A program made the position numbers and the translations under genes. From Ceratodon purpureus (taxonomy: Eukaryota > Streptophyta > Bryopsida > Pseudoditrichales > Ditrichaceae), in the NCBI GenBank assembly GCA_014871385.1, contig CM026421.1, forward strand, positions 27,088,752 to 27,152,751: a stretch of DNA of 64,000 nucleotides, in the 5' to 3' direction. Positions 5,372 through 56,699 of the stretch are shown piece by piece; positions within the stretch are counted from its first letter, which is position 1, and every line of letters begins with the position of its first letter. The notes below the pieces were generated by a model. It saw nothing but the letters and a program-made list of their open reading frames with translations. It did no database searches and had not been told where the DNA came from.

Positions 5372-6665
5372 AAATCGAAACAAAGCGAGAATGTCGTATC
5401 CTACAAACCAACCACACATTCTACAAAACCAAGGGATGAGTTCTCTCCAAAAAACCCCTACAATTCAACCAGTGCACTTCTAGGAAACCCGCCATCAAAC
5501 ACATCAAAATTCCAGTAGCTTTAAAAGACTAGAAACAGAGTAGGGCTGATCCATCACACCTGACGAGCGCAGCAGCAGCAGCACTCTCCCACGGTGAGGA
5601 GGAAGACAAATCACGCTCGCCATGATCGCATTCCGCAGACGAAGAGGAGGCAGTGAGGCGTGACGCAGAAGGCTCGATACGGGTCTGCAGAGCGCGAGAA
5701 ATGTATCGGGCGGACGAGTAAAGGGAGGTGGAGAGAGATCGCGTAGGTGATGGCCCCGCCATGGCCGACCCCGCAGCGTGAGATGGAGTAGAGTGGAGCA
5801 CAATGCGGTGCCAATGCGATCGGAGCACAATGCACCACCATGGACTGCGAATGCGAATGCAACACCAAATGGCTCCCCAGGCTCCTCCTCTGCAACGCTC
5901 GCCCTGATGGCTAGGGTTTAAGCCAACATACCTCTTTCCTGTTTTCCTAGATTTTGGTTCCTGTTATGTTCACATAGTGTAGATAATGGTGGTTTTAGGT
6001 GTAGTGACGGTTTTGGATATTGGCTTCTCTCTCGTGGGGTTTAGGGCTCAACTCCAGTCTGGACTCTGCGGAAGGGGTTTTGCACTCTTCTCCAGTTTTT
6101 CAAGAGACTGGCTTGAATGAAGAGTATCAATTTTTTAATTTTAGTTTTAATTTTTTTGGGCCTTTTTCTGTTCTGTTTTGATTTTGTTTTTAATTTGGTT
6201 TTTGTTTCTGTTTTTGTTTTGTTGTGTTCTGCATGGGTTTGTGCCAAGGGCTACAGGAACTGGGTAAAGCACTTGGTACACCAAAGTTTGGATGTGGTGT
6301 GTTATTGGATTTTGATCAACAGTCTTTTGGAAAAAACGATGAGACGTTAGAGCGCTCTGCATTTTCTGGTGAGGGTGGCTTTGGGGAGTTAGCCTCAGAT
6401 CTGGAACTTGAAGAGACGAGTGCGCTGGGCCTTGTCTGCCCCCTTCGAATCCTTGTTTGTAGAGCGTTGCTGTAGAGATCGCTGAGGGGTTGGTTTCAGG
6501 AAGTGTTGGGAAGGGGCAGTTTGTAACTCTGAGAAGATTTGGTGACTGGTCTGTAGTCACAAGTGAAAGGAGAAGATATCACTAGAGAGGAATCTGAAAG
6601 CGCTGGGCCTTGTGTTGAAATAGTGATCTCCTTTCACCTGCTAAGCTCAGTTCGAGATCACTATC
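5372..6665. other. Intergenic region with a T-rich tract
   Basis: GC-rich from about 5550 to 5900, then a T/G-rich tract at 6130-6230 of repeated TTTTT/TTTTG words resembling an intron polypyrimidine or a retroposon tail. GCGCTGGGCCTTGT occurs twice, near 6422 and 6600. No gene is supported. The 5' end of the retrotransposon may lie in here. Confidence 0.3.
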
Positions 6666-7746
6666 ATGAGTTACAGCAATATCAGTAGCGATCAAGGACC
6701 CAGCAGCGCAGCTAACCCATCAAGGCCACCGGATCCAGAAAACTCTCCCACCAAGCATTGCTGCCGCACGCCGCAAGGAGCTATGTAGGCTCCTTGAAAC
6801 TCATACCATTCTCCTTAGCTTCTTTGCTTTACTCTCGCTCATTTCTTTACACATTGTCCTGCACCCTAGCAACATCTATCGAGCCTTACGTACCAGTCAG
6901 AAGGTCCCCATAACATCAGTAGACACAATATCCGTCTTGCACCACACACACTCTTTCTCCAGATCCGACATTTCAGGATCTCGCCCATACCTGGAGCATA
7001 CAACATATCTGCACCAAAGTACACACATTAGCAACACCACCATTCGGAGCAGATTACTCGCACTTAGAGATGAAGAACAAGAAGATCAACAGCAGAAGAC
7101 AAAGATCCGACGTTACTCATTGTACAAGCTGCTACGTCCCTGTACACCGACGTTGCTCACACTCCGACGTTGCTCATCGAACCAGCTACCACGACCCTGT
7201 GCACCGACGCTGCTGAAATTCCGACGTTGCCCATCGAACCAGCTGCTGCGACCCTCTGCACTAACGCTGCTCAAACTTCAACGCTGTTCGCTAAACCAGC
7301 TACTCGCCGAACCAGCTCATCGAACAAGTTCTCCACCGCATCGACGAAGCAGCTGCATTTTAATTCAAGCGCTCCCTAGATCGGACCAGCTGCTCTCTGC
7401 GGTAGTTCATCCAACTAGCTGTCCACTGCATTGTGGAAAAAGATCAACACCAGCGAGGCTGTTCACCGACCAGCATTCCAAGTGTTTGCTGGAAAAGCGA
7501 AAGCTTGCTGGAGTTCCTCGCGCCTGCTGGAATACTCAGCACCTGCTCGTCCAGCCCCGAAGAGCAACATCACCGACGTCGCTTCATACTTCAGGTAAGT
7601 TTTCCATACCCCTACGCCCTGACATTGACAAACACGTCTGCTTAGAAGTTCCTAACTACGTAATCCAAAAATTAAAATCACAGCACTTGCATATTGTCTT
7701 TTTTGCATGCGACACAAGTGAATTAAATCTCAACATCATAAACTAG
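6666..7746 (+). CDS. N-terminal part of the retrotransposon ORF1 (broken)
   Basis: An ATG at 6666 opens a short plausible frame (MSYSNISSDQGPSSAANP...) that closes at 6786-6788. The neighbouring frame is open from 6670 to a single UAG at 7744-7746, then continues without a stop to 10965. It encodes a hydrophobic stretch (ILLSFFALLSLISLHIVL) near 6811-6864, a Gln/Glu-rich piece and the 57-base repeats. No domain is recognised. I read it as the start of ORF1 with one indel and one nonsense change. Host-derived leader sequence is the alternative. Confidence 0.35.
7107..7334 (+). repeat. 57-bp tandem repeat, about four units
   Basis: Units start at 7107, 7164, 7221 and 7278, each opening with a variant of CCGACGTTGCTCATCGAACC. 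The period of 57 is 19 codons, so the array keeps the ORF1 frame open and encodes a repeated LRRCSSNQLLRP-like segment. Confidence 0.8.
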
Positions 7747-10700
7747 AACAAGTTCAAAACAAGATATTTAACTAACCTAACTTGTTACACACCACATAAC
7801 AGTTGCAAATCTCCCCCTAACCAACTTAAAAAGAACACATCAGTATGCAAAGTATGCAAGTGGGGTTGGGTTGGGAGCAGTGAACGTACCTGTCTCGTAC
7901 CAGAAGAGTCTCAGGAGATCAGCACCACCCGCGGAGAAACAAACCTGAGAATCGTGAGAGCTAATTGCTGGAGATACTCACAGCCGCACCACATCAGCCC
8001 CAAGACTACCTCAGTAAACACATCGCAGAGTGAAGAGTTACGAGAAGGACGGCTGTACCTGTTTTACTCGATAAAGCTGTACAAGAGCCACCAAATCTCA
8101 AGTAACGACAAGAGACATAGCAGCAGAGTAACAACGCTGGACTCTAGAGCTCCCCCTCAAGCGCACCATCCACACCTCAACAAGAGCGCCTGTTTGCAGC
8201 TGCACAACCTCGGCCACAACCCGGCAACCGCAGTGCACCCGCAAGAAAGAACTCAAATCGCAACAACAAACCTCAAAAGCCTCAACAACCTATTGGAGGC
8301 AAGCTGCACACTCGGTGACCACCGTTTGACCCTGCCTGGTTGCTCCAACGTCAAGCCTTGGGGAGTTGCGACATCAACAAGTCTGCAACCGGAGGTAAGT
8401 AACCCTAACCTCTTCCCTCAATGTGCACATTTTCAAACTATTGTCGTTTCCACACACCGCTGGAACTGTTCCTCTAATTTGAGCACATTAACCCGTAACC
8501 TCACACACAAAAATAAACCCAAACCTAAAAACGTAATTATAGAACAACATAGAGAAGATAATTGCCGTAAATCCACACATAACCAAACCAAAACAAACAA
8601 GAGACATTTTGCATGCAAGCGGGATTGGGCAGGGTCCAGGGCTCTTACCGTGCGAAGGAGTTGCAGCACTTCTGTAGCTTCAAAGTCGACAACCTTCCCC
8701 GATCGTGGCAAACACCAACACCAAGTCTGTAGCTGCAGAAGTGCAAAGCAGAGGAGCCTTCACGCGGAGGCACCAAGCCTGCACCCGAAGCTACACCGCA
8801 CCAAAACCGTCAAACTCTGGCGCATGAAGTGGACAGAGATGTTCGATCTGAGGGTTCCGTTGGTGGAGATTGTGACCTGGAACGACTGGGTCGAAAGCTC
8901 GCATGTGGCATCGATCTTCCCTGGTCAAGGAGGTGCGGCCTCTGCAGTTTCGGCGTTTCCACATGAAGCTTTTCTGGAGCTTGGGACCTACTTCATCGAC
9001 TGTACGGAGGGTGGTACAATCGCAGCACACCGTAGCTCTCTGTTCCAAGATTCGGAGCTGAAACTCCACTCAACAATCACCCACTTCGTCAAAATTCCTG
9101 TATTCAAGTCTCTGCTACGCACTCCAAGCTGCGGAGATTTGCTGCGGAGAACTTGCTGCGGAGACCTGCTGCGGAAAGCAAGAAGAGTTGAGGACCTGTG
9201 GCAACGAAAGCGTGGAGCGAGGGTGCCCCAACATCTAGAAGGTAAGCGCTTAGTTGACAGTTCCTCTACAGACAAGAAAATTGCTTACCAATTGGGCTAT
9301 GAGCGACCCAGGTGTACACAAATTGCTCTTGTAAAACAGTTGAATCTTGTTGCTCTGAGCGTTATGCTCGAGCAGTGTCTGTGTACAGCCTCACCTGCCC
9401 CTGCATGTTTAGGATTAGATGTCGACAGTTGTGTTTGCTTAGGATTAGCATCGTTTGGGCATGTTGGTCATTCATGTTTACATGTTATTATGATTTCAAG
9501 AACGATGAGTAGCAGTAGTCATACCCAGGGTTATAAGATCTGCAACAACAAGTTTGCTGCAGCTAGTATGCAGATCAGTAACTTCAATAGGAAATTAGTG
9601 CCATTCACTCTGTGTTGTATCCGTAGAATCTTTGGAACAGTTTCTGTCTGGAATGGTAATGGAATGTTGATATATATTGTGGCTGGTGCTTATATTGAGA
9701 AGAATAATTACATTAAGTTTGTATATTATGGTCACCCAAAAGCTTTGTCAACTGCCATAGATTGTTATGTTACAAATGAAAATGCACACTTCTTCTCAAA
9801 CATACAATCTCTGGTAGGCCCACAACTTAATTTGTGGAATGAGTTGTATACTGAGATGATAAGAAGTGAAACAATTAAATTCCTTTACTACTCTACAACT
9901 GCTCTCTTCAATTTCCAATACTTGGAAAATACTCTCCACTTCTTCCTAACCATAAAACCTCTGGTAGGCCCACAACTTAATTTGTGGAATGAGGTGTTGG
10001 TTAGGGTGATAAGAAGTAGCATCTATGCCAAACGTGGAAAATTCAAATCTCATCCAGATTTTCAAATTCATCCAAAATTGAAATTTCATCTAACTTTCAA
10101 ATTTCAGCCAACTTTCAAATTTCATTCAACTTTCAAATTTCATCCAAATTTCAGTGTCCATTCAAACTATAAAATTCATTCAAAATCCAGAATTTATCCA
10201 CGATACCGAATTCATCTACAATCGAGGATGCATTCAATCCTTACACTTCATCCAAAATTAATATTACCTCCAGAAATTAAAATTCATCTGAAAAACATAA
10301 TACATCCAAATCATAAATTCCACCAAAAATACAGATCTTACCAGAAATACAATAATTACTCACTACCTAAATTACACATGATATTAGTTCTTATACAAAA
10401 TCAAAATCTTTTTTACAAACATTCGACGACCATGGCCCATCAACACCTCAAGCAAATAGAATACACCTATCTACACCACGAGAAATTAGAAAATGAAAGA
10501 AACACAAACCAACACATATACAATTGGTTTGCTAACTCAATTACAAACCATTCAACCGAAGTCATTACAACCCCACATTATCTACCCTCACGTTTAGAAC
10601 AAATAATACCTGCATTACCTAATCTATTTAACACAACAAAATTTATAACAACAAAATATTATAAATTAAATTATAAAAACCCTAAAACGAGCATTTACCA

Positions 10701-10965
10701 AGGATACTACTTTGTAAATAAATTAGCCCTACTCCAATGCGGGGACATTGAATTAAACCCAGGGCCAATGCCCAACATACTTAGAACTCATCCAGCCGAA
10801 CACAAGAAAAGAGCTAGAAGATACTTTATCCCTAGCACAATTAAATTGCGCCCGGAATACCAACATATTGCAAACTCATTTGCTCCAATTTTAAAAACCA
10901 ACCACCATCTACACCATCAAGCAATCATGGAATTTCCACACCTACATCGATATATATATAAATAG
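7747..10965 (+). CDS. Retrotransposon ORF1 with C-terminal 2A peptide
   Basis: The frame is open for 1073 codons with no stop, far longer than chance allows. No known ORF1 domain (RRM, zinc knuckle, esterase) is evident. Visible features in order: basic, Ser/His/Thr-rich sequence; a 50-codon near-duplication (VGPQLNLWNE at 9811 and 9961); about eighteen hexapeptide repeats of xKFHPx type (10036-10359); then a conventional-looking segment starting at an ATG in strong Kozak context (ACCATGG, 10432). This ends in LLQCGDIELNPGP at 10729-10767, a match to the 2A ribosome-skipping consensus D(V/I)ExNPGP with the preceding LL-x-x-G. A further 66 codons run to the stop. 2A would release the upstream protein from the downstream polymerase. 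The next frame (from 10962) overlaps the stop, so a -1 shift, natural or by indel in the TA run, is needed. True start: upstream near 6666, or 10432. Confidence 0.6.
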   Translation, partial: NKFKTRYLTNLTCYTPHNSCKSPPNQLKKNTSVCKVCKWGWVGSSERTCLVPEESQEISTTRGETNLRIVRANCWRYSQPHHISPKTTSVNTSQSEELREGRLYLFYSIKLYKSHQISSNDKRHSSRVTTLDSRAPPQAHHPHLNKSACLQLHNLGHNPATAVHPQERTQIATTNLKSLNNLLEASCTLGDHRLTLPGCSNVKPWGVATSTSLQPEVSNPNLFPQCAHFQTIVVSTHRWNCSSNLSTLTRNLTHKNKPKPKNVIIEQHREDNCRKSTHNQTKTNKRHFACKRDWAGSRALTVRRSCSTSVASKSTTFPDRGKHQHQVCSCRSAKQRSLHAEAPSLHPKLHRTKTVKLWRMKWTEMFDLRVPLVEIVTWNDWVESSHVASIFPGQGGAASAVSAFPHEAFLELGTYFIDCTEGGTIAAHRSSLFQDSELKLHSTITHFVKIPVFKSLLRTPSCGDLLRRTCCGDLLRKARRVEDLWQRKRGARVPQHLEGKRLVDSSSTDKKIAYQLGYERPRCTQIALVKQLNLVALSVMLEQCLCTASPAPACLGLDVDSCVCLGLASFGHVGHSCLHVIMISRTMSSSSHTQGYKICNNKFAAASMQISNFNRKLVPFTLCCIRRIFGTVSVWNGNGMLIYIVAGAYIEKNNYIKFVYYGHPKALSTAIDCYVTNENAHFFSNIQSLVGPQLNLWNELYTEMIRSETIKFLYYSTTALFNFQYLENTLHFFLTIKPLVGPQLNLWNEVLVRVIRSSIYAKRGKFKSHPDFQIHPKLKFHLTFKFQPTFKFHSTFKFHPNFSVHSNYKIHSKSRIYPRYRIHLQSRMHSILTLHPKLILPPEIKIHLKNIIHPNHKFHQKYRSYQKYNNYSLPKLHMILVLIQNQNLFYKHSTTMAHQHLKQIEYTYLHHEKLENERNTNQHIYNWFANSITNHSTEVITTPHYLPSRLEQIIPALPNLFNTTKFITTKYYKLNYKNPKTSIYQGYYFVNKLALLQCGDIELNPGPMPNILRTHPAEHKKRARRYFIPSTIKLRPEYQHIANSFAPILKTNHHLHHQAIMEFPHLHRYIYK
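9781..10018 (+). repeat. Direct duplication, 150-bp period
   Basis: A segment around CTGGTAGGCCCACAACTTAA at 9811 recurs at 9961, exactly 150 bases (50 codons) later, with flanking similarity of about 85 bases (HFF...LVGPQLNLWNE...IRS). The in-frame spacing fits duplication inside a coding region. Confidence 0.75.
10036..10359 (+). repeat. 18-bp tandem repeat, about 18 degenerate units
   Basis: From 10036 the sequence can be cut into 18-base units resembling CCAACTTTCAAATTTCAT (clearest at 10090-10143), decaying downstream. The period is six codons, giving a FKFHPx-like peptide. The array starts where the coding strand becomes strongly A+C rich and ends 72 bases before the ACCATGG at 10432. 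It may be a protein repeat or a 5'-UTR/promoter array of the element. Confidence 0.85.
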
Positions 10966-12614
10966 AAATACAATCTCCACTACCTCACATACTATATGCA
11001 CTAATCGTTACCATACATCCAATAATAAATACATGTAATAATATATTAGCTCAGCCCCACATTTACTACTTCAATGATATTTGGACCAATACAGTATTGA
11101 TCAGACTAGCCAACCTAAATAACCCCCCGGAAAGACACATCCTCACTCAACACCCTTATACCAAATTCATTGAAATGAACCATGACCTAATATCCCCAAA
11201 AAACTCAATTCACGACGAACTTTACAAATTTATCCATAACCAAGATACACCACCAACACCTATCATACTCCAAAGAAAATTTCCCTTCTTACCAAATAAA
11301 CTAATCACTGAAGCTTTACGCTGTTTCGAAAGTCTAAATGAATACTCACATCCACCACCCCTTCCAAACATCCCAACACCTCCGCCGAGAATAAACATCA
11401 ATACTAATGACGAAACAAATATAATAACTTGGAATGCATCTTCGCTTAATACAGCTTTACCAAACCTACAAAACCTCGTATACAATTCCTCAAGGAATAC
11501 GACAATTATAAACATCCAAGAAACAAAACTCACAGCAACCAAATCCACTAAATGGATACAAAATCTATTTTCTGAGTATAAACTCATTTTTAATAACACA
11601 CATGCCCTCACAAGATGCATGCAACAAAGAATGCCCTACACCCCCGGAAGAGGAGGCTTACTTACACTTATACACAATAAATATGCCTTCCCTGGAAATA
11701 TTACCAAAATCCCTACACCAGCAAACATTTCCCCATATCTACAAATAATAAAAATAAACAACCATCCGTTATTACCATGGTTAATCATACATTTATACAT
11801 GCCGACACACCTAGAAGACATCCGCCTCATCCCCCACATTCAAACTACAATCACAAACCAAATAAATGCACACCCTAATCATACATACATCCTGTGTGGA
11901 GACTTCAATCGTGATATAGCACTAAACGGAAGACAAAATCAGAACACCAACACCCCACCACAAGAAGAAGATATTCAATGGAAAAACTTTACAAATTCAC
12001 TAAATCTAGAATACATCCCAACAAACACAACATTCACAAGACAAGGAGGTTACAACTACACATCAACTAGTCTCATAGATGGTTTCTACATAAAATCCTT
12101 AGATAATATTAGACTTACCTCCACGACAAACACAAATTTGAATCTAAACTCAGATCATTATCCAGTTACCTTACACATTCCACAAAACATACTGATAGCC
12201 AGACCACCGGCCCCCATCAATACCCCAACAATTAGAATCTTAAATCCAGTACCTCCAGAAAACTTAGAAAAGTTTAATATTGAATTTTTTGAAAAAAATT
12301 CTATACAAATAAATGAATTAACCAGACTTCTAGAAAATAATGACCATCTTACCCCCGCTTTATGGCAGGAAGCTTGCGCATCCTTAGACAAAATTGTAGA
12401 AAAAATCTCAGAAACCATTGAAAAAACATGTAACGCACCCCCACTACCACAACTCACAAATAGAACAAGACAACAAGGTGGCTTTTTACCTCGAAAACTA
12501 GCCAAAGAATGGAAAAAACACCTTGCCACATACCATCTTATCAGAAAAACTATATATATCGCAAAAAAACAACCTCCAATGGCAAACACACCCAATATTG
12601 AACAAAATACGTAG
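10962..12614 (+). CDS. Retrotransposon pol, first part: APE-type endonuclease
   Basis: This frame is open directly from 10962, overlapping the ORF1 stop by four bases, so it has no AUG of its own and would need a frameshift. A Pro-rich linker precedes the exonuclease-endonuclease-phosphatase fold: WNASSLN (start strand), NIQETKLT (metal-binding Glu), a GGLL loop, IIHLYMPTH, CGDFNRD (catalytic Asp-Asn) and SDHYPV (terminal Asp-His). The APE domain nicks target DNA to prime reverse transcription. Downstream follows a helical linker to RT. The frame closes just after an A7 run at 12563-12569, past which the +1 frame carries the continuation, pointing to a one-base indel in that run. Confidence 0.85.
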   Translation: MEIQSPLPHILYALIVTIHPIINTCNNILAQPHIYYFNDIWTNTVLIRLANLNNPPERHILTQHPYTKFIEMNHDLISPKNSIHDELYKFIHNQDTPPTPIILQRKFPFLPNKLITEALRCFESLNEYSHPPPLPNIPTPPPRININTNDETNIITWNASSLNTALPNLQNLVYNSSRNTTIINIQETKLTATKSTKWIQNLFSEYKLIFNNTHALTRCMQQRMPYTPGRGGLLTLIHNKYAFPGNITKIPTPANISPYLQIIKINNHPLLPWLIIHLYMPTHLEDIRLIPHIQTTITNQINAHPNHTYILCGDFNRDIALNGRQNQNTNTPPQEEDIQWKNFTNSLNLEYIPTNTTFTRQGGYNYTSTSLIDGFYIKSLDNIRLTSTTNTNLNLNSDHYPVTLHIPQNILIARPPAPINTPTIRILNPVPPENLEKFNIEFFEKNSIQINELTRLLENNDHLTPALWQEACASLDKIVEKISETIEKTCNAPPLPQLTNRTRQQGGFLPRKLAKEWKKHLATYHLIRKTIYIAKKQPPMANTPNIEQNT

Positions 12615-15600
12615 CCACCAATATGTACAAATCCCACATCCACCAGCAACGGACTCTATACCGAACGAATGGATCGATGACATAGCTAATATTGCAAAAA
12701 CTGCTAACAAAGAAGCCAGGAAAATAACCACAAAATACACTAAAGATTGCATCCACAAAGCTGTATCAAAATATCGACAACTGTATGAAAAAAGCCCCAA
12801 AAAAGTAAATCGAAAAGTCTTCAAAAACTCTGAAACTTCACCTCTTGACTCTATAATGGATAGACAAAACCACATCTTAACTAGTCCGGAAGATATTGCT
12901 CAAGAAATTTACATCCAACAGTCCATTAGTAACCGGCCAACAGTCCCCACATGTCACTATCAAACTACACATCCTCCACAATGCACATGTAGCGTCAGAC
13001 AATACCCATGGCATGACTTGGACGGATTCACAATTGATCAACGCGGAGAACCACAAATCCCCCTTCACACATATTTTGATCAAGAAACCTACGATTTATG
13101 CCTCAAAAACCTAGGAAATAACAAAGCCCCAGGCCCTGACAAAATACCTAACTCTATTCTAAAAAATATGCCCCCACGATTCCACAAACTACTATTTCTA
13201 TTTTTTAAACACTGCTACAAACAAAAACAAATACCTGCAACATGGAAAACCAGTCTAACTGTCTTATTATATAAAAAAGGTGAACCATCCCAACTTACAA
13301 ACCATAGACCTATCGCTTTAGCGAACACCATATACAAACTCTTTACCAGCACATTAACCTTTATCCTTTCCACGTACGGTGAAAGACATCAAATTCTGCA
13401 TGACAGCCAAGAAGGATTCCGAGCAGAAAGAGGAACATCCAGACAACTTCAACTACTTATTGCAGCCTTAGAAGATGCAAGATTTACAAATCAAGATATA
13501 TATATTCTCTACATTGACTTCAAAAATGCTTTTGGCTCCATTGACCATGCGAGACTCTTAGCCATAATGAAAGATCTCGGATACCCAACCGATGCTATAA
13601 ACCTGGTAGGAAATATATACTCACAATCCTCTACTATATTTTTTAGAGAACATTTTGGTAAAACTCTACCTATTCCCATCCAAAGAGGAACAATACAAGG
13701 GGATACTCTTAGTCCATATCTACTTATAATATTCTTAGAACCACTTCTTCGATGGTTACAAAAAGGTGACAATGGATACACCTTTGGTACATCCAAAGTT
13801 ACAATCTCATCTGCAGCATATGCTGATGATTTAGCAGCTATTGCTAACAAATTAGCATCACTACAAATACAACTAAACAAACTAGACAAATTCTGCGAAT
13901 GGGCTGGAATGGATCTTGGTATACCTAAATGTGCAGTGACCGGATGCCCCAATAAATCAAAAATGAACCCCATAGCATTCAAAGCACAGATCCAAGCCAC
14001 CAATATAAACTACAGAAACCAACCAATACCAGTTTTGGACCAACATAGTCCCTATACATATCTTGGAATAAACCTAGCACCATCACTTAAATGGAAAACA
14101 CAAATAAACACCACCACGGCTAAAGTCATCAAACAATGCCAAGCCTTAGTGGCTTGTCCAGCCACTATGAAACAAAAAATTAACATGGCCGACACAGTCA
14201 TACGTGCCGGGATCGCATACAGCTTCTACGCAGTGCCATACTCTATGCCAGCCATTATAAAACTTGACAAAAAGATCATAGCACTCCACAAAACAATATG
14301 TGGACTACCAAAAAGTACATCTAATATTGCTACACAACTCCCACACGATCTGTTCGGAATGGAAGCCTTTTCGTTAAAAAATGCCTATCTACGATGTATT
14401 GGAGAACAATTACAAAATGCTCTCAATGACAAAGGCAGACTCGGTAAAATCTACTTTGGCTTAATACAATTCATACTTGCAAAATTTGGAGGCTCCGAAG
14501 AAATAGACCGCATCAAATATCAAGATTGTGTGAGATCCCCTATTACTAGAACATTGTTTTTACTTAAACATGAAGCCGGAGTCCACCTTAAAAGCACTAT
14601 AGAAAATTTTCTACTAAATCCATCCCCACTCGAAACCGCATGGATGCAAGAAGCACAACACCTACATGGCCTAAATCCCAAAACTTCTCTCAAACTACTA
14701 CAAAAACTACTATTACATAATATAATAAATTTAGAACAAATAACCATGCCTAACGCGACCACCCTAATGAACCCAGATGAATATAAAATATACCACTCCA
14801 ACCCCACAAAACTCATAAAAAGTGCGCTAAATATTGCCAGTCAATTATTTTGTAAACCCACTTGCCATCAAAGATGCCAAATACCATGTAGATTCCGATT
14901 TCACTTCCCCCCAAGAACTCTAAAAAATGATTACATATTATTAAACCACAACATTCTACCACAACAATTGAACCCCCCAATACACCCTCCCAACCCCCCT
15001 ATTCCTGAACTCCCTCCTCCTCCCAATAATATGCTTAAATATCCAAGACAATTCCCCATACACACAATATTAAACCACAAACAAAATAAAATCAAAGATC
15101 CAAATGGGATAAACTATAAAGATACAACATATTTATGCCAATGGACCACGCCAAATAATAATACATACAACAAATGGCGTAGTCAAAGAGAACTTTTCCC
15201 GTGGAGCGACATTAACACTTGTCTCCACAATACTGAATTACTTACTCAATACTACACTAAACAACAACATAAACATTTCCTAAACATCATCGAAAAGCAC
15301 TTCTCCATAGAACAACAAAAAGATACAAGATACGTTACTCCGGCCACAATTATCCCATTGGCACATGTCTCCATTAATGAATGCAATCCAGAAAATGACA
15401 TCGAAACAGAATCGAACATTATCCAAACACAACATGACATCGCACACATATACGAAGATAATGGCCGACACCTCATCACCATTCCAAAAACTAGACTACT
15501 ATGGCTATGGAAACAATATCAACATGCAAAAAATACTCCACATGGCCTTGAGCCATCCACCCAATCATTTGAAACTGAAATTGTCTGGCTATATCAAAGA

Positions 15601-17790
15601 TATAAATATCGTATCCCTAAAAATGATCCACTTAAATGTGCTCAATATACAATACCAACTGAAATACTAGATTTTCTAATATCAACATTCAACATCCACC
15701 AATCTTACTTTTCATCACCAGTTACATGCCCTACACAATTTACCCAATTTTACTCACCATTCTCACGAGATATAATATTTGGCTCTCTAGGGAAAGCATT
15801 TGATCACAAATGGAAAGGAATTGGCTACGCTCACCCCCACAATGAAACCGACATACAACAAGCCATTCATTGGGCCCGCCTTGCGGCAAAAAATGACCCA
15901 AACAGTATCACCATACTCATCTCTCCCGATACTAACTGGTACCAAAACTCCAACCCCTACACTGGTCCATTCCCAGACACACATATTATTGCCCATTTTG
16001 CTGCAGACACCATTACATATGAAGAGCCAACAATTCCCCCCGAACTTAAACTCAAAAGAAAAGAACTTTCTACGCTCCGAATATTCTGTATCCATCACCA
16101 AAACAACAACATCGGTACACACGAGCAAATAAATCAACTCGTTCACACAACTAACAATCTCCAAATATTACAAATTCACACACAAATTGCATCTCCGACT
16201 TCCTTAAACACTCATGTCAATCCCAGTAAAAAATGGTCCAAATCATATCACCCAAACACCCCCGCAAATAACTCAACACCTATCCGACCACTACCAAATT
16301 ACCAAACAAATCTACCACTAAAATTCCACCCCCAATTCAGTTATTACACAGATGGATCATTCAAACCCCCAAAAGAAATGGGCAACGGTAAATGGAGAAG
16401 AGAAAAAGCCGGATACGGTATTTACAGCCCCAAAGGCCTCAATATCCCCAAAAGACTCCATGGACACCAAAATATACTCCGTGCCGAAATGATGGCAGTA
16501 TACAAAACACTCAGAATTATTAACACACAATTCCCTAACGAACCAGCATACATATTTACCGACTGTCTAAATGTACTATACCTACTTAATACACAAATAA
16601 AACATCCCACACTACATAATAGTCATCCCGATCAAACCACACTTGCCTCCATAGTAGAACTACTCCAACAAAGAACACAACCAATTTCACTATACAAAGT
16701 TAGAGCACACATCAACATTGACGGTAACGAAGAGGCAGATTATTTAGCAAAGCAAGGTCTAAAACTAGCACACAGAAAAGCCCTACACTCATACGAACAT
16801 GCCCATGCCACTCCGTTCTACTTCCAAAAAGATAACTGGCCTTCAAGAAACGATGTTCCAGACAAAGGACCAGTTAGAACTCTAGAAAAACAAATCAAAA
16901 AATATGACAGAGAAAACAATCTAGAAAACATGGCCATACAAACCCCCAACATTTGCAAATGGACGGAAAATGTAGACATAGACAATGTACTTTCTAACGA
17001 ATTTTGGGAAAATCCAGCCATCACTGACAAGCAAAAATCATGCCTCATAAAATTCCGTACGGGAACTTACATGGGCCAAGCTAGAAAACAAATGTTTTTC
17101 GGAAGAGAAAGATTTCCATCCATCACATGCCCCATTTGCAATTCACGCGAACCGGATGCATGGCTACATGTATTACTCACATGCCAACAACAACATATAC
17201 ACTCCCTCCGAGTCAAAAGACACAACAAAGCAGTATGGGAAATTAGAAAACTACTAGTCTCATCCGAAAAATCTCGTTGTTTTATTCTAATGAATGCGGG
17301 CACCTTCAATGATAAACCCCCAAAAAATACCGTTCCCAATTGGTTACTTCCATGCACATGTGGCACTCAAAGATGTCATTGTAACTCTAGATTTAGACCA
17401 GACATTCTTTGCGTTAAAGGTTTGCCGTACCAAAGCGACCCCCCTACAGAAATAAACCCCAATCTTACCATACAATTCATTGAATTCACATACTGCAATG
17501 ACAGATTCTCACTTGAAACATTTGTAGCTAAAACCAACAAATACAACCCACTAATTGCCAGTCTTACCGCTAGAGGATGGAAAGTCGACCCCCTCATTGT
17601 CATCAGAGCAGGCGCTAGAGCTACCACACACATTCCTTCAATGAAACTACTTGCAGACAATTTCAAAATACCATGGCTTACCATCAAAAACACCTTTAAA
17701 AACATAAACACTATTGCCATACAATATGCCATGTCTATACTTCTCCACAAAAGAAGAATAGAAACCACCAACCATTACCCGAAACATTAG
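12523..17790 (+). CDS. Retrotransposon pol, main part: RT, MTase-like, RNase H, CCHC, RLE
   Basis: An unbroken frame of about 1750 codons; effective entry is near 12565 from the previous frame. RT: APGPDKIPN, NHRPIAL, YIDFKNAFGS (first catalytic Asp), QGDTLSPYL and AYADDL (13819-13830). Next a Cys cluster (Cx3Cx3Cx3C, 14851-14889). At 15700-15845 YFSSPVTC, FGSLGKAFD and a G-x-x-x-A-HPHN loop resemble the PCIF1 adenine-methyltransferase core, with the expected NPPF-type motif degenerate. RNase H: YTDGS (16345), RAEM, FTDC and NEEAD, with all four acidic residues present. CCHC: Cx2Cx9Hx4C at 17128-17184. RLE: RPD (17395-17403), IEFT (17479-17490) and KxxKY (17530-17544), the R2-type PD-(D/E)XK plan. 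All catalytic positions of RT, RNase H and RLE look intact. The MTase role is uncertain. Confidence 0.85.
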   Translation: MPHTILSEKLYISQKNNLQWQTHPILNKIRSHQYVQIPHPPATDSIPNEWIDDIANIAKTANKEARKITTKYTKDCIHKAVSKYRQLYEKSPKKVNRKVFKNSETSPLDSIMDRQNHILTSPEDIAQEIYIQQSISNRPTVPTCHYQTTHPPQCTCSVRQYPWHDLDGFTIDQRGEPQIPLHTYFDQETYDLCLKNLGNNKAPGPDKIPNSILKNMPPRFHKLLFLFFKHCYKQKQIPATWKTSLTVLLYKKGEPSQLTNHRPIALANTIYKLFTSTLTFILSTYGERHQILHDSQEGFRAERGTSRQLQLLIAALEDARFTNQDIYILYIDFKNAFGSIDHARLLAIMKDLGYPTDAINLVGNIYSQSSTIFFREHFGKTLPIPIQRGTIQGDTLSPYLLIIFLEPLLRWLQKGDNGYTFGTSKVTISSAAYADDLAAIANKLASLQIQLNKLDKFCEWAGMDLGIPKCAVTGCPNKSKMNPIAFKAQIQATNINYRNQPIPVLDQHSPYTYLGINLAPSLKWKTQINTTTAKVIKQCQALVACPATMKQKINMADTVIRAGIAYSFYAVPYSMPAIIKLDKKIIALHKTICGLPKSTSNIATQLPHDLFGMEAFSLKNAYLRCIGEQLQNALNDKGRLGKIYFGLIQFILAKFGGSEEIDRIKYQDCVRSPITRTLFLLKHEAGVHLKSTIENFLLNPSPLETAWMQEAQHLHGLNPKTSLKLLQKLLLHNIINLEQITMPNATTLMNPDEYKIYHSNPTKLIKSALNIASQLFCKPTCHQRCQIPCRFRFHFPPRTLKNDYILLNHNILPQQLNPPIHPPNPPIPELPPPPNNMLKYPRQFPIHTILNHKQNKIKDPNGINYKDTTYLCQWTTPNNNTYNKWRSQRELFPWSDINTCLHNTELLTQYYTKQQHKHFLNIIEKHFSIEQQKDTRYVTPATIIPLAHVSINECNPENDIETESNIIQTQHDIAHIYEDNGRHLITIPKTRLLWLWKQYQHAKNTPHGLEPSTQSFETEIVWLYQRYKYRIPKNDPLKCAQYTIPTEILDFLISTFNIHQSYFSSPVTCPTQFTQFYSPFSRDIIFGSLGKAFDHKWKGIGYAHPHNETDIQQAIHWARLAAKNDPNSITILISPDTNWYQNSNPYTGPFPDTHIIAHFAADTITYEEPTIPPELKLKRKELSTLRIFCIHHQNNNIGTHEQINQLVHTTNNLQILQIHTQIASPTSLNTHVNPSKKWSKSYHPNTPANNSTPIRPLPNYQTNLPLKFHPQFSYYTDGSFKPPKEMGNGKWRREKAGYGIYSPKGLNIPKRLHGHQNILRAEMMAVYKTLRIINTQFPNEPAYIFTDCLNVLYLLNTQIKHPTLHNSHPDQTTLASIVELLQQRTQPISLYKVRAHINIDGNEEADYLAKQGLKLAHRKALHSYEHAHATPFYFQKDNWPSRNDVPDKGPVRTLEKQIKKYDRENNLENMAIQTPNICKWTENVDIDNVLSNEFWENPAITDKQKSCLIKFRTGTYMGQARKQMFFGRERFPSITCPICNSREPDAWLHVLLTCQQQHIHSLRVKRHNKAVWEIRKLLVSSEKSRCFILMNAGTFNDKPPKNTVPNWLLPCTCGTQRCHCNSRFRPDILCVKGLPYQSDPPTEINPNLTIQFIEFTYCNDRFSLETFVAKTNKYNPLIASLTARGWKVDPLIVIRAGARATTHIPSMKLLADNFKIPWLTIKNTFKNINTIAIQYAMSILLHKRRIETTNHYPKH

Positions 17791-17835
17791 ACCCCCCATA
17801 GTCAAAGAAAACCCCTAAATATAATCAAAAATTTT

Positions 17836-17851
17836 AGTAGCCAGAGCTACT
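17836..17851 (+). other. Short hairpin in the retrotransposon 3' UTR
   Basis: AGTAGC-CAGA-GCTACT forms a perfect 6-bp stem with a tetraloop 46 bases after the pol stop. 3' hairpins are recognised by RT in several LINE clades, but so short a stem could be coincidence. Confidence 0.3.
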
Positions 17852-17879
17852 TTATTTGAATTGATAGCATACGGGTGTC

Positions 17880-18085
17880 AAGTCTCTTGTCAACTTCTCA
17901 CAGAGGGGGCTGTTGGTTGGCACAACTCATCTACTGCCTGCAATTGCTCACTCAGCAGTACCAAGCCACTTCATCCCCCACATCCACTCAAACGAGTCCA
18001 TCAGGGTTCGAACCCGGACCAGATTAATGAGACAAACGCTCACCCCCAACCAACAAATGAGCTCGTGGCTTGGTGTCCAAAATTG
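17880..18085 (-). repeat. tRNA-derived, SINE-like sequence
   Basis: Read on the minus strand, GAGCTCATTTGTTGG and TGAGCG (A-box-like), then GTTTGTCTCATTAATC and GGTCCGGGTTCGAACCCTGA (B-box and T-arm) recall an elongator tRNA-Met/Ile layout. The acceptor stem does not close, so it is not a functional tRNA but probably a SINE head or tRNA-like relic. It lies directly downstream of the LINE. Confidence 0.45.
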
Positions 18086-18209
18086 AAATCAAATGAATCT
18101 TGTGTTGATAATCACTACTATTTACTGGCTACCTGTTACTAGTTACTGGTTACTGGTTACTTTGTGACTAAAGTGTCTACTCTCGAAAGGGGGGAGTAGA
18201 TCTTTACTT

Positions 18210-18302
18210 CCATACCTTTGTCCTGTGGGCATTGGCTTGGGGGTGGATCGAACAGACACTTAATTCACTTCGGTCTCCTCCGGAGACCGTAGTTTCTCTC
18301 TC
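18210..18302. repeat. Dispersed ~90-bp repeat, copy A, with hairpin
   Basis: About 93 bases closely matching 24810-24900. Shared blocks include GTGGGCATTGG and CGAACAGACACT. Copy A contains a perfect 8-bp hairpin, CGGTCTCC-TCC-GGAGACCG (18271-18289). Probably a short SINE or MITE family. Confidence 0.65.
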
Positions 18303-19260
18303 TGGTGTGTTATTGAGAATTGATTTGTTGTAAAACTTAAGTTGGATTGAAGGGTCTCGGTGCACAAAATAATTGGAGCTTTTGAAAAGCGTCACATAAT
18401 TTTCTTCATTATAATTTGCACACACGATAAAAAGTTGAAGTTTTTAATTGTATTTTGTATTTGAGATGATTTTTTTTTTTTAAGTGTCAACACTTCAAAC
18501 AAGTGTAGTAATTTTTGAAATCGTATCCAATACTTGTACTGATATCTCCAAAATATAGCATCCTACCAACTTGGATAGGAACTAAGAAACAATTTTGAAA
18601 CCTAGTTTTCTATTAGTGCTTGCATTTTGCTTCTATGTCCAAATTTTGTAAGTGATAGCATATAGAAACACTAATAAAGACGCTTTGGCCTCTATTTAGG
18701 GAAATGAAGTTATAGCCTCTAGCTTTAAGCATATTAGTCAAGAGTAGTAGACTTGCCAAAAGTCTTCAAAAGTCAAATGTATAACATGAATTTTTGGAAA
18801 TAACAATTATATGGATCAAAATGCCCTTAATACTTAATTCCTAAAATTCTTAGAGACCATATTATGGTGGCAGCAAATTGGGGAAGTTACTTTAAATGCC
18901 AAAAAAATACAAATTTTCTAAATATTTTTTCCACGCACTCCTTCACCAATAACTTTTCTATGGTATAATTTTTGAAGCATTTGAAGTTACGATGCAAAAG
19001 TTGTGAATTTTAGAGGAGTTTATCCTTGATCTATGAGCATGTAATTAATTACAATCTTCCATATTTTGCCTATGCTACTTGTCATTTACAAATGTAGAAA
19101 GAAAATAGACTAATTTTCAAAAGATGGGCACTTAGAACATAATGGAACCAATATTCTCTCATCCATATATATTGATGAATTTCAAAATCTTATAGAGTTT
19201 CAATTTTGAAATTTTATATATCTTTTAAATAAAATTTAGACTTCGTGTATAGAAGTCATG
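18303..19260. other. AT-rich intergenic DNA
   Basis: No open frame of note and no domain. The AT-rich style is like the adjoining DNA transposon, so it may be older transposon debris. I see no identifiable feature. Confidence 0.3.
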
Positions 19261-21544
19261 GCTTAACCCCTAAAGGTCCAAGAAACCCGATTGTGGATTT
19301 TGCTATTTTGGGCAGCCCGGATGGAGAGGTTAAAAGTAATATTTTTTCCTAATATTTTTATTGGATGCTCCCTTTACCGCAAGGTGTACGTGGTAAAATT
19401 TTCAAAGTTGAATTTCAATTTTAGAACCTTCATCTAGAAATTTTAGGTTTCAAGTTGAAGTAGGGGAGTTTAAAATTAGGTGTTATTTCAAATCTTTTAA
19501 AAAAAATATGTTCATAACCAAATCACTATTCAAAATCCAAAATGACCCAAGAAAAAATGTTTACCAATTTTACGAGGGCAACTTCCAAAAATTACATGAA
19601 CAAGCTTCAAAGTTTTCTCTAATTTTACATTTTCTCCTTTCAAAAATTTTCAGAATTTGAGATTTAGGAATTTTGCAATTTTTTTTTCTTCCAAAATTCA
19701 CGAACTCATAGATGTAACTTTTCATTGTTCACTTTTTTTCCAAACCAAAAAACTTTAATGTTATTTAAGTTTTATCATATTGAGGATTTTGTACCTGCTT
19801 TTAAAAAATAATTTGTATGAAGGCCAAAAAATCAAAATGAGTCTTCAAAATTTTGCGTGGATGTGCCTAACTCAGTTATCTACATGGAACGGTAAAGATC
19901 CAACAGTTGAAATTTGACATGGTATTAGTGCAAGTAATTAGGTTGAAGATCTTACGGTTGGAAATACCAGAAAAGGAAATTTTATTGGAAACATACATCA
20001 ATTTCCATAAGGTGGTCAAAATCTGCAGTTTTAGGTCTTGGAGGTCCCAAAACACTCTGGACTTTTAGGGATTAAAAGGCTCTATAGAATGGAATTTACA
20101 AATGACTGGAGCAACCTAGAATTTTTTAAAGGTTCTACTCAAATAAGTTTGTTCCATGGAAGGCTTGAGAATGAAAGATTTATTTTTTATCTTATTTTTT
20201 TTTATTTTTTTTTATATTTTTTTTTATTTTTATTTTCATTTTTTCAGATGCCTAAAGAAGTATACCTAAATATATAGGTTTTGATTTAGAACGTGTATTT
20301 TTTGCATGAAATTATTTTTGATATTTTTTCTTCTTTAACATTTCAAGTTACATAATTACAAAAATATGACCATTCACTTTTAGTATATTTATTTTTTGGG
20401 ATTTTACATTCACCTTCAAAAATCGTGTGATTGTGTGAATTACATATCCTTGTACTTGTGTGAAAAAGAAGCATTTGTTTATTGCAAACTCATTTTTTCA
20501 TAGTTCTTCAAACATTTTTATTTTGTTCTTTTTAGAGGTCGTTCACAATTCAAACAAGTACATGAAAGTATTGAAGCACAAATTTTTGAATGTATAAGAA
20601 AACTTTTAGAAACATTACATGGTGACTTCACAATCCAATCATTATATGAAAAAAAAGTTTTGAAAATGTTTGTAATCTTGCAAATCATATGATTTTGAAA
20701 ATGTTTGTAATCTTGCAAACAAGGTGGATTTTGCAAACTTGGGGTCTTTTTTAGGACATCTAACCGTAAGATCTTGTAGCTAACTTCTATGTCTACATGT
20801 TCACCAAATCTCACACACTCATTCTTCACCGATTGCAAGATCGTAACGTTCAAAGTTGAAAAACAAGTTTTTTTCCTTGCAAAAAAAGGGGACAGCAGAG
20901 TTTTGAATGCCCAAAAAACCATTTTTTTGCATTATGGATTTTGGAGGGTTTTGGTGCACGACAAAGAAGACTGAGTTAGCTAATCGTAATAAGAAAACTA
21001 TATTCAGAAAAGTTGTGGAAAGTTTCCAAAAAATCATTTTCCGCTAGGGGGTATATTGAAATTCTCAAACAAAGGCCGTTTTTGGACAATAAAAATAGCA
21101 TATGAAAAAAAATTTGATTAAAAATCCGAACGGTGGGAACATGCTCTACTGCCTTCTCTATACATAGAAATTTTTATTTTTGAAAAATATCAAAATCTCA
21201 ATTTTTGGTGGAATTTTAAAGTTTTTTCTTTGGGCAGATTTTGGCAGATTTTGACAGTTTTGGGCATTTTGGGCAGTTTTGGGCAGTTTTGGGCAGAATT
21301 TGCTGCATTCATAGTGGCTTAGAGAAATTCAGCAGCTGCCCAACGAGCAGCGTTTGACACTTAAACCTTCATAACTTTTGATCCCGATGTCGGAATTGAA
21401 AAATAAAAATACCTACACGAAGATCTCCAAACGGCCCACCTTCAATAAAAATTTCAGAAAATCCTGATATAAATTGCATCCATAGGTACATGACCAAATT
21501 CCAAAAAAGCCCAAATGTGGCAGATTGTCCTTTAGGGGTTAAGC
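19261..21544. mobile_element. 2.3-kb DNA transposon with 16-bp terminal inverted repeats
   Basis: It starts with GCTTAACCCCTAAAGG (19261-19276) and ends with the exact reverse complement (21529-21544). A second, diverged copy in inverted orientation lies at 1-692, confirming a repeat family. Inside are a 35-bp direct repeat (around 20658 and 20693) and a short array of TTTTGGGCAG words (about 21236-21300). No transposase frame is present, so it is non-autonomous. A clear target-site duplication was not identified, so the superfamily is not assigned. Confidence 0.7.
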
Positions 21545-21778: not shown

Positions 21779-25150
<3,372 letters not shown>

Positions 25151-35984: not shown

Positions 35985-36544
35985 TTTGGGGCTGAAGTCT
36001 ATCGTTTTGATTTTTTTACTGGTTTGAGAAGGGGAATGCTAGAACATGAGCGGCGAGCATCGTGCGGTGGGCCATGAGCAGGATTCCATGAGCGATGAGC
36101 GGATGAATTACTATATTAAGTAAACATATTTCATAGAGATAGGTCAATGAAACATCCATAAAATTGATGAATTTCTTTCAGATTCACTAGATTTGGTAAT
36201 GTCCCCGACGATTACATGTGTATGATTCATAGTATTCACAGAAGAAAGGGTATACACTAGCGTGAATACAAACATTAAGAGCAATTGTTTATGCGACATA
36301 ACTTTAAAATGATGGCATGATTGTAAAAGTAATAACGGCTGTAAAATGAGGTGGCATTTATGATATTGCTGAAATGGTTATTAATTGTTAATACATAGCC
36401 ATGGCCAAGTGAAAGTGTGTATGAAGGGCTCAATTCAGTTGAGGAAGTGCACCGAACTAGTTTAGGAGTTTGAGGGTTTACCATAGAATTGGAATGCAAT
36501 TAGAAAAAAGAACAAACCAACACAAAAGTAGACTATTGTGAGCA

Positions 36545-37660
36545 ATGGAAAGGGAGCAATTTGAGAGAGGACTCGAACCATGGTTTGCATATGAGATAGG
36601 ATTGCCGAATGGGGGACTCGATCCTAGTCGTGATTGCAACCACATAAACAATATGCAGTTGAAGAACATGTTCGGAGAGAGACACAAGAAGCAGGGTTAT
36701 TTCTATCGCGGTGCTAAATCTGACAACGTGAGGGCAAGGGCGGAAGAGTTGTACCCAGTGATATGGCAAACTGCCGAAGTTCCAAAGTCTCGCTATATTC
36801 CGGAGAGCTTTGCAAGAGCACTTGTATCGGAGGTTTGTCACGGTTATTGTATGAACTGGGCATTGTATGCAGCAGAGCGATGGAGAGGAAAGAAAAAGGA
36901 TAGTCAAGAGGTAGTCCAGCAAAAGTACAAGTACAAGGGAACACATTTAGAGAAGATGTATTACGCTCTAGCGCAAAAGAGAATAGAGAGTGAGATACAT
37001 TGTGGTGAGGGTGAAGCTTTGGCGCTACAAGCCGCACATCAGAGTGAAAACATAGAAGTTGGTGCCCCTGTAATTGTTCCACAGTATTCAACCAACGAAG
37101 CTCAGGAGAAATGTCAAGCTAAAGCAGTAGCCATGTTAAGGAAGATGTTGAGTCAGTCACAGGGTCTTTTGGCTAGTCAAGAGGCAAAAGGGGCACTACT
37201 TGAAAAGTGCGAGAACGAGGAGCTAGTAAAGGAGAACATCGAAGAAATGGCAGAGCTGAAGCTCGAAATCAGTAAACTAGAGGAACAAATTAAGAGCAAG
37301 GAAGAAGGCATGAAGATTGCCAAGGCTAAAAATGTGAAGGAGTAGAATGGCTTGGAGTTCAAAGGCGGAGAAGTCATTGCTAATGTTGACAGATTGAAAG
37401 CTACAGTCAAGAAGATGAAGGAGATATTGAAATTCCCAGTCAGCTTACATCCGAGCCCATACATTGAAGACATTGGAACTGGTATTGAAAGTGACCATAT
37501 TCTTATCAAGAACTGTGCAATGTGTAAAACTACTTTTCTGCTTTTGGATGTTGTAATAGCTCCTTGTAAATGCGCCTACCATCCATGGTGCGTGGCATCG
37601 CAAAACCGACTTGAAGGAAAATGTGCAAATCAGGTATGCGCAAAGAAGTTCACAAATTAA
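36545..37660 (+). CDS. Coiled-coil/zinc-cluster protein, left-arm copy, with internal UAG
   Basis: The ATG at 36545 opens 266 codons to a UAG at 37343-37345. The same frame continues for another 105 codons to 37660 and still looks like protein. N-terminal region: globular and basic, with Trp/Tyr/Cys. Residues ~205-265: coiled coil (ELKLEISKLEEQIKSKEEG). After the UAG: a Cys/His cluster (CAMC, CKCAYHPWC, two more Cys; 37514-37650), resembling a RING-variant or treble-clef zinc site. I do not recognise the family. The UAG suggests a broken gene or readthrough. The right arm has the same arrangement. Confidence 0.5.
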
Positions 37661-37832
37661 TGGAAGATAAGCTTCGGCTTTAGCAGCATTGAAGGTGATT
37701 TCAAACCAGATTACCATTTGTATTGTACCGTAAAATTGAACAAGTAGAACATGATGTAAATGATAAAGAATAGCCAATGAGAATTACAAATGCGCCTATG
37801 AATGATATGTAGGATAACGTAAAGTAGTTCTA

Positions 37833-38572
37833 GCGGGGGGAAGCACAATAAAGTGTACCACAAAAGTGCTTAGCTCATTGCCAATTTCAGCCCCTATCGC
37901 AAAGACTTAAAAAAGTGGCATCTTGGTTGTTAGTATGATGGGAAGAAGTTTAGGTATAGAAAATAGACTTGATTATCTAAAGTGTGGGAGAATATGGTAC
38001 AAATTTGCGTCTTCTACAATGCCGTACGAGAACCTTAAAGTTTGGCAAAGTGAATGCAGTCATTAGGAAAAGTGACCGTATTACATTGTAGTTTTGACAA
38101 AAATCACTTTTGACTTTGTGGGGCCCTTCGTTTGTACATTACGCTTGTAGAAATGATCCGGGTGGCCGTGTTTGCAATCCTAGATTGGCGAGAAGTACCG
38201 CAGGGACGTTTTTAAAACACTGTTTTCCGTGAAACTTTTTGTGAGGTTTTTTTCACCAAACATTGTTTTTTAAATTGGAAAAAAACATCCTCTAAAGACA
38301 ATAGAGGGCCCCAAATGAAGAAATTAAGACTTTGGAAAAGTTCATTTTCATGATTTAGAACTCGCGGTCAAATTAAGTTTCAATTGAAGATGTTTTTTTT
38401 ATGGAGATGCCTGTAAGATACCTTATGACATCTTAAAAAGTGACTAAAATGCTCAAAAACTACACCAAAATGCTCAAAATAAGCTTTGAGCTTTAAAAAA
38501 CAGCACACTTCATATTCACTTCTTAGTAATCACATATTGCACTTTGTGGTCCACTTTATTGTGCTCTCCCCC
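37833..38572. mobile_element. TA-flanked MITE, left-arm copy (740 bp)
   Basis: Ends are imperfect inverted repeats of about 38 bases built around GCACAATAAAGTG and ACCACAAA, preceded by a G-rich terminus. Both ends are bounded by TA (37831-37832 and 38573-38574), the target site of Tc1/mariner-type elements. No transposase. The interior is AT-rich. Confidence 0.7.
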
Positions 38573-39168
38573 TAGCATGAACATGGGTCACCTAAGCAAT
38601 TACGTTATAAATGATCTTGCTGAAGTCGCAGATCCTTACAACACAATGACTTCTATGGATGGAGGAGATCGAGCGAAGAAAAGGAAGCACCTTAATTCAG
38701 ACATCGGCGGCATCAATTTCCATCGCAAATCAACTACAACAAATTGCTCAAAGATCCAGAAAGAATAAAAGACGGTGAGAATACGTGACAGTCGACAACC
38801 AAGATGTTTGAATTTTTCATCCTGTAAATATAAGTACCATTCTTGAACAAAATTGCAGCTATAGTGTTCAATCAAAGTTCTTGAGGTCTCGTTTCACAAA
38901 CTTTCTGGTCATAGGAAACTTGTAGGGCACATGTTCTTGTATTGATTTCCTCAGATTGGATTCATAAGTCATGAGAATTCTTTCAAACGATAGTCTTGAT
39001 TTCAAGTAAAGGAGATTCCATTTTAGGCTATCTCAATATTCGATCATTAGCTTTTTAAGTGTGAATGGTCAACCTTGTATTTCTCGGAGAAGTGACTGGC
39101 CAATTATGTTTGGTGTTTTATAAGTCATTAGTGCGAGGTTTGTGGCAAATGTTGACTTTGCTTCAACT

Positions 39169-39250
39169 GGCTCTTTTAATAAGTTTTGATTGGATACTCT
39201 TGTACCAATGGCTCTTTTGATAAGTTTTGATCGGACTCTCTTATTCCAAC
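39169..39250. repeat. 41-bp tandem duplication, left arm
   Basis: Two units beginning GGCTCTTTTAATAAGTTTTG and GGCTCTTTTGATAAGTTTTG, 41 bases apart. Confidence 0.7.

Positions 39251-40260: not shown

Positions 40261-40263
<3 letters not shown>

Positions 40264-40322
<59 letters not shown>
40264..40322. repeat. (TA)n microsatellite, left arm
   Basis: Alternating TA of about 58 bases in a wider AT-rich zone (about 40100-42200) with further TA runs near 40600 and 41744-41776. No gene is visible between 38580 and 42470. Confidence 0.9.
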
Positions 40323-40330
<8 letters not shown>

Positions 40331-41741: not shown

Positions 41742-41779
<38 letters not shown>

Positions 41780-43275: not shown

Positions 43276-43277
43276 TC

Positions 43278-56691: not shown

Positions 56692-56699
56692 CTTATATA
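56692..56699 (-). promoter_or_regulatory. TATA box of the right pseudokinase gene
   Basis: Minus-strand TATATAAG, counterpart of 43278-43285. Confidence 0.5.

Follow-up and report, generated by a model that had tools for sequence, protein, structure and literature searches.

Natural StopGo (2A) sequences are known mainly from RNA viruses, and also from some LINEs and a few cellular genes. Among LINEs, those of animals and trypanosomes are already known to contain them: a 2A sequence was reportedly described in the trypanosome element L1Tc by Heras in 2006, and Odon is said to have found such sequences in 2013 in APE-type LINEs of multicellular organisms with non-plant hosts. The Dualen/RandI non-LTR retrotransposons were reportedly described by Kojima and Fujiwara in 2005; the first Dualen reportedly contained a cysteine protease domain.

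A matching core does not guarantee function, since not all sequences of the form D[VI]ExNPGP are active (PMC11512398). In a 2026 survey (PMC12846837), a leucine-rich "LLLLSG-like" upstream class with (A/S/C)G before D12 is distinguished, a natural H14 variant is given as more than 95% active and the activity of E14Q is quoted as 56% or 26%; the same survey states that plant viruses are without evidence of natural StopGo use. P2A separated proteins in Physcomitrella according to PMC7775405, so 2A works in moss, and 2A functions in Nicotiana too (PMC4981915, where targeting by the 2A of a sea-urchin NLR is also shown).

Here we analyse a 2A motif in a LINE of the moss Ceratodon purpureus. We consider it highly probable from sequence comparison that the motif is a genuine 2A/StopGo signal. 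In this Dualen/RandI-type element it would separate the polymerase from an N-terminal leader that evolves fast.

The element and its host

The window, i. e. the whole stretch of 64,000 nt that was analysed, had been attributed to a bryophyte, and a neighbouring gene confirms this. The minus-strand gene at about 3.5-5.8 kb codes for a CRM-domain protein. Its exon pieces, joined to 424 aa, match M758_1G320100 of Ceratodon purpureus with 100% identity, and the next named moss, Physcomitrium patens, follows at 74%. No Rfam families (positions 5500-20000) and no tRNAs were found, and the viral and genome collections searched returned no loci related to the element. Elsewhere in the window a large inverted duplication is likely (36542-44912 versus 55065-63443): plus-strand ORFs at 36542-37345 (267 aa) and 44103-44912 (269 aa) recur on the minus strand at 62640-63443 and 55065-55874, respectively, the copies having been judged identical by eye.

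The element itself is on the plus strand. Pfam placed an exonuclease-III-type endonuclease in a frame-3 ORF (10962-12614) and a reverse transcriptase (RT), a PCIF1_WW domain and an RNase H in a second frame-1 ORF (12502-17790). The endonuclease is APE-like (exonuclease III / L1-type; 11421-12167; Exo_endo_phos and Exo_endo_phos_2), and the AlphaFold2 model of P0012, a related protein of 1007 aa (mean pLDDT 69.9, pTM 0.41), matched LINE-1 ORF2p and AP endonucleases in Foldseek. The RT (13273-14076; RVT_1, E 1.1e-25), for which the solved structures closest by sequence are R2 proteins, is followed by the PCIF1_WW-family domain (15547-15870; PF12237, E 2.2e-10, above the gathering score) and the RNase H (16339-16761; PF00075, E 6.5e-13). 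A restriction-like endonuclease (CxxC...H....C, RH, PD, E) was recognised at 17056-17601 in a 65-sequence alignment, where each of its residues is present in 59-65 of the sequences, and all seven Foldseek matches of the C-terminal AlphaFold2 model (mean pLDDT 82) at E <= 0.001 were R2 proteins. Therefore the element carries two endonucleases, one APE-like and one R2-like, as the earlier note had proposed. Neither the window proteins P0001-P0004 nor P0012 gave a Pfam match to a cysteine protease domain. The protease was not taken as decisive. We file the element as a dual-endonuclease LINE of the Dualen/RandI type, with the reservation that the RT tree (below) has no row labelled as either.

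According to the Pfam annotation of the RT-search matches listed, the PCIF1_WW-family domain is present in many relatives too. Twenty-two aligned proteins share the consensus ERFASPLN in this region, at what we take to be the place where the PCIF1 methyltransferase motif might be expected; the window has, by eye, SYFSSPV nearby. Cysteine-protease domains of the Josephin or OTU-like kind are found in some relatives, for example Josephin in P0062 of Haematococcus.

A short tandem repeat, (TTACTGG)n at 18122-18161, is probably the 3' tail of the element; 3' repeats of RandI are tabulated in PMC3747384. Past this tail, a stretch of 92 columns (18208-18299) recurs 6.6 kb away at 24808-24898 with 84% identity and may be a separate repeat.

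The 2A motif and its conservation

The sequence LLQCGDIELNPGP is encoded in frame 1 at exactly 10729-10767, where the earlier note had reported it, in the context ...NKLALLQCGDIELNPGPMPNILR... and directly followed by MPNILR. Its core DIELNPGP (10744-10767) fits the consensus (D/G/C/N)(V/I)ExNPGP, and skipping is predicted between Gly 10762-10764 and Pro 10765-10767. Ahead of D12, LALLQCG forms a leucine-rich lead with G at p11, which is a supportive upstream context. In the six frames of the window D[VI]ExNPGP and NPGP each occur only once. None of 60 first-order Markov simulations of the window and none of 400 simulations of the element produced the full core; the mean count of bare NPGP in them was 0.52 (window) and 0.06 (element).

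The case for a real 2A is stronger because the motif is conserved in relatives. Residues 1-560 of P0012 as the query retrieved 57 related proteins, of which 33 span the 2A site, 7 begin at the Met just past it and 17 begin further downstream. A core ending in NPGP is present in 30 of the 33 covering proteins; it is altered to NPDP in P0141 and P0164 and to NLGP in P0154. Loss or neutral decay of the motif in other copies, which the earlier note had named as refuting it, is thus not what the proteins show. A profile search with the post-2A domain, in which matches at E < 1e-10 were kept and many at E near 1-15 were dropped, yielded 33 junction sites in 30 proteins; it missed the 2A-bearing P0150, P0163 and P0171, which are included in the count of 33 covering proteins. 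At these junction sites G11, D12, N16 and P19 are each present in 33/33, leucine at -12 in 32/33 and NPGP in 29/33. Position 14 is E in 23, H in 6 and Q in 4 sites, and no other residue occurs there. The strict pattern [DGCN][VI]ExNPGP is found at 20 junction sites and the other 13 deviate, 4 of them without NPGP.

Relative site rates from IQ-TREE, with a mean of 0.97, show the same picture. They are 0.20 for G, 0.06 for D, 0.09 for I, 0.41 for E and 2.37 for x in the first part of the motif, and 0.04, 0.47, 0.53 and 0.24 for N, P, G and P in the second half of the core. Hence the obligatory 2A residues lie at 0.04-0.53 and the leader mostly at 1-2.6. The columns right after the 2A are likewise slow, and the complete 2A octamer ranks only 91 of 511 8-mers by rate because it includes the free x as well as the decayed copies. 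Judged by protein site rates and residue counts, the obligatory residues are clearly under selective constraint. The changes at p14, which are restricted to H and Q, and the upstream context follow the published StopGo rules position by position.

The part following the motif is better conserved than the part ahead of it. This comparison was made with 16 2A-bearing proteins with at least 100 aa beyond the leader, i. e. 120 pairs. In 38 of these pairs the part after the 2A is 60% identical or more; their mean identity was 72% in this part versus 53% in the leader, the latter being the mean of pairs with a leader match (28 of the 38 align over more than 70% of the leader length). Upstream of the leader, any match at all was obtained in 21 of the 38 pairs, with composition correction off, and in 19 of these 21 the identity was below 40%.

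The post-2A domain and duplicated 2A units

On the polymerase side of the predicted skip lies an all-helical domain (10768-11328), delimited from the P0012 model and the P0012/P0133 alignment. In residues 91-277 of P0012, 14 of 19 ten-residue blocks have a pLDDT of at least 80, with values of 57-66 for residues 211-240. The domain has no Pfam name, and in P0126, P0150, P0169, P0176, P0174 and P0133 Pfam found nothing ahead of the endonuclease at E <= 0.01. The best 50 of 364 PDB matches to the P0012 model were endonucleases or whole LINE-1 ORF2p, none of them naming the post-2A domain, and the 29 viral matches (E <= 0.001) were, as far as named, of the endonuclease/exonuclease/phosphatase type or uncharacterised.

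P0142 and P0146 contain two 2A units, and a post-2A domain copy comes after each of them; the units are 43% identical over 68 residues in P0142 and 40% identical over 78 residues in P0146. P0169 has one intact and one decayed unit (NPSP), which are 45% identical over 143 residues, and in P0175 two 2A motifs stand at a distance of 44 residues from each other.

One reading frame with two probable lesions

The earlier note had read the locus as an ORF1 separated by a frame break from the polymerase. The frame does stop about 66 codons past the motif as it described, the in-frame TAG at 10963-10965 being the 66th codon after it. This stop follows frame break 1, which is located at about 10950-10961 inside the post-2A domain; break 2 lies around an A-run at 12556-12600. 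Alignments to relatives show a different layout, however. In P0012 a single frame leads from the leader through the 2A and the post-2A domain to the endonuclease and the RT, P0133 crosses break 1 in frame, and P0005 does so at break 2. All 26 relatives caught by pattern read through break 1, and 24 of the 27 that cover break 2 continue in frame there. Most gene models of the relatives are themselves truncated somewhere. Because there are relatives with an open frame across both, the two breaks are most likely lesions of the window copy, and a layout in which an ORF1 stop precedes the polymerase is rejected.

A programmed frameshift at break 2 is likewise disfavoured by the 24 of 27 relatives in frame. 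Of the three others, P0133 stops at the A-run of the window, and P0127 and P0128 leave the frame there; for these two, recurrent slippage or shared descent is likelier than a shift programmed in one sub-lineage. Two frame breaks disable the window copy, which also has an upstream stop; its 2A is intact. As far as can be judged from the aligned proteins, the 2A most likely lies within one long ORF, about 215 aa before the endonuclease, and there is no separate ORF1. So the proposal of a 2A in a moss dual-endonuclease LINE, under constraint, stands, but the split between ORF1 and polymerase by a frame break does not.

The leader and the upstream frame

The N-terminal leader in frame with the 2A was placed at 10432-10728, from the ATG at 10432, by alignment to P0133 and P0126. 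It is recognisable in relatives from about 10498: block 10498-10956 is 61% identical to P0133 and block 10522-10953 is 60% identical to P0126, both spanning the leader past the 2A. In P0012 the leader is modelled as disordered, with a pLDDT below 50 for residues 1-74 and 82-88. The N-terminal parts of 13 relatives have a pI of 8.1-10.4 (12 of the 13 above 9); the window leader from 10432 is weakly basic (pI 8.6) and polar and has no hydrophobic run.

The leader and the 2A are held by a frame-1 ORF of 1072 codons (7747-10965). If frame 1 is followed from 6670 to 10965, its 1431 codons (4.3 kb) contain one internal stop (TAG 7744-7746); the two remaining plus-strand frames have 71 and 82. No in-frame ATG is found in the first 2.1 kb, i. 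e. before 8824, and all three plus-strand frames together contain 11 ATGs at 6000-8499. This open frame is possibly a captured or non-AUG-started N-terminus. It includes a GH71-like segment of 64 aa (8812-9003; PF03659, E 2.7e-11, above the gathering score), two 81-nt direct repeats with the in-frame peptide LVGPQLNLWNE... (9787-10017), and, upstream of the leader, an 18-bp tandem repeat that codes in frame for repeated hexapeptides (10042-10311). A peptide like LVGPQLNLWNE... is also present upstream of the 2A of P0176 (a weak match, E 0.005), and the alignment with P0167 (42% over 273 columns) begins within the 18-bp repeat. The two blocks that precede the GH71 piece show weak codon periodicity (Cramer V 0.080 with p 0.03 in one, 0.072 with p 0.09 in the other), compared with 0.016-0.067 in 20 control pieces and 0.115-0.144 in the polymerase blocks. 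In relatives, up to 899 codons precede the 2A.

From the upstream open frame, the hexapeptide repeats, the leader units repeated in relatives, the GH71-like piece and the long variable N-termini of relatives a further, rather doubtful suggestion can be drawn. The 2A could serve to discard a variable, partly captured, predicted upstream extension while the N-terminus of the polymerase stays constant. On this tentative reading, the N-terminus might be the same whatever 5' sequence (promoter or first exon) a copy gains, and selection would perhaps bear less on the upstream peptide than on keeping its frame open.

Possible function of the motif

According to the interpretation that we favour, one ORF would be translated from the N-terminal leader through the 2A into the polymerase, and the ribosome would skip one peptide bond at NPG|P. 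The leader, of at least about 90-110 aa and possibly much longer, would be released with the 2A at its C-terminus. A separate polymerase would begin with proline and comprise the helical domain, the APE endonuclease, the RT, the PCIF1-like domain, the RNase H and the restriction-like endonuclease. The leader, disordered and basic in most relatives, could be an ORF1-like RNA-binding accessory protein, or it could be shed to give the polymerase a clean N-terminus. That skipping takes place, how efficient it would be and what the leader does are inferred.

Several other explanations deserve attention. That Met follows P19 in 22 of the 33 core matches (30 proteins; rate 0.40) and that 7 of the 57 gene models start exactly at this Met would suit internal initiation at the AUG right after NPGP. 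In that case an upstream ORF or an N-terminal extension would end with the motif, and skipping would be secondary. We consider this unlikely: it leaves a constrained G-D-I-E-x-N-P-G-P with a free x unexplained, a residue other than Met is found after P19 in 11 of the 33 matches, and the seven Met starts are choices of the gene caller. Alternatively, the polymerase could stay uncleaved and retain the NPGP stretch for structural reasons, which would agree with the slow columns just past the 2A and with the P0012 model, confident from about residue 91. Yet the residues before the junction in this model are those with a pLDDT below 50 (1-74 and 82-88), and mean identity is lower in the leader (53%) than after the 2A (72%). 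Skipping is favoured over a structural role because the constraint follows the StopGo rules residue by residue, including the free p15 and the H or Q at p14; the structural explanation is hence very improbable.

The earlier note had also raised a cryptic targeting role. Such a switch, by which the unskipped product would be routed by the leader and the skipped polymerase would not, has a precedent in the 2A of a sea-urchin NLR, shown in Nicotiana as well (PMC4981915), and in four Haematococcus proteins the 2A is preceded by a hydrophobic run, ITYIAWLLLACG. The moss leader, however, is polar and modelled as disordered, with no hydrophobic run, and switchable targeting is therefore not favoured and seems quite improbable here. 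The frame-broken state of the window copy could finally suggest a chance resemblance in a dead repeat. This would have to be reconciled with a core that is absent from all 60 and 400 simulations and present in 30 of the 33 relatives that span the site, so we regard it as practically negligible. Ribosome skipping which frees the leader remains by far the most probable function.

Distribution of 2A among related elements

Among the proteins listed from the RT search (the best 120 of 208 matches), eight have the 2A core: P0008 and P0012, which belong to the moss-type clade, P0039, P0119, where the core is at the very N-terminus and the lead is outside the sequence, and four proteins of Haematococcus lacustris, out of 16 listed for this species. 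Where more distant relatives carry a 2A, it is N-terminal to the endonuclease too. In P0039 (residues 305-370) a near-2A, LLLIAGIEPNPGE, stands 57 residues before the full LLLLLRAGIEPNPGP, which is followed by a Josephin match below the Pfam gathering score.

An RT tree was made of 120 rows, with the window added and P0012 absent; the 2A label of the window was assigned by hand. Eight rows have a 2A, 27 have a long N-terminus without 2A and 85 are too short to judge; the 2A is thus missing from 27 of the 35 rows whose N-terminus is of sufficient length. The label changes four times on the tree, three of these changes being forced by well-supported branches, compared with a mean of 7.4 after shuffling. 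The window and P0005-P0008 form one clade (99% SH-aLRT). By these label counts and the core counts, the 2A is near-universal in the moss-type clade and patchy outside it among the proteins compared. The tree includes proteins of Haematococcus, Pleodorina and Parachlorella, and no row is labelled Dualen or RandI.

Comparison with known systems

Should the interpretation be correct, natural ribosome skipping would extend to the green lineage, with a moss LINE and further cases among its algal relatives, and to the group of LINEs with two endonucleases. Candidate native plant 2A sequences would become available, including the H14 and Q14 forms and the doubled 2A units. It would also become a testable question whether a single-ORF LINE without ORF1 obtains an accessory protein in this way or sheds a variable 5' end. 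We found no earlier moss, algal or dual-endonuclease 2A in the open-licence literature, and a prior report may exist; within this literature, what is new is the setting, namely the green lineage and an element with two endonucleases.

The viral L-rich class (motifs 2/6 of PMC12846837) shares with the moss motif the leucine-rich lead, G at p11 and D(V/I)ExNPGP, but the moss motif sits in a non-viral element. L1Tc and the APE-type LINEs resemble the window element in having a 2A inside a LINE polyprotein; the window element differs from them by its two endonucleases and its place in the green lineage. With Dualen/RandI, as described in excerpts of PMC3636483, PMC4640811, PMC3747384 and PMC8226300, it has in common the APE and the restriction-like endonuclease around the RT, the RNase H and a short tandem-repeat 3' tail, which takes the place of poly(A) as in RandI (PMC3747384). 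The named RT matches listed are green-algal (Haematococcus, Pleodorina, Parachlorella; best 120 of 208). What sets the window element apart from Dualen/RandI is its moss host and the 2A ahead of the endonuclease, a feature that the excerpts of these four papers do not mention for Dualen.
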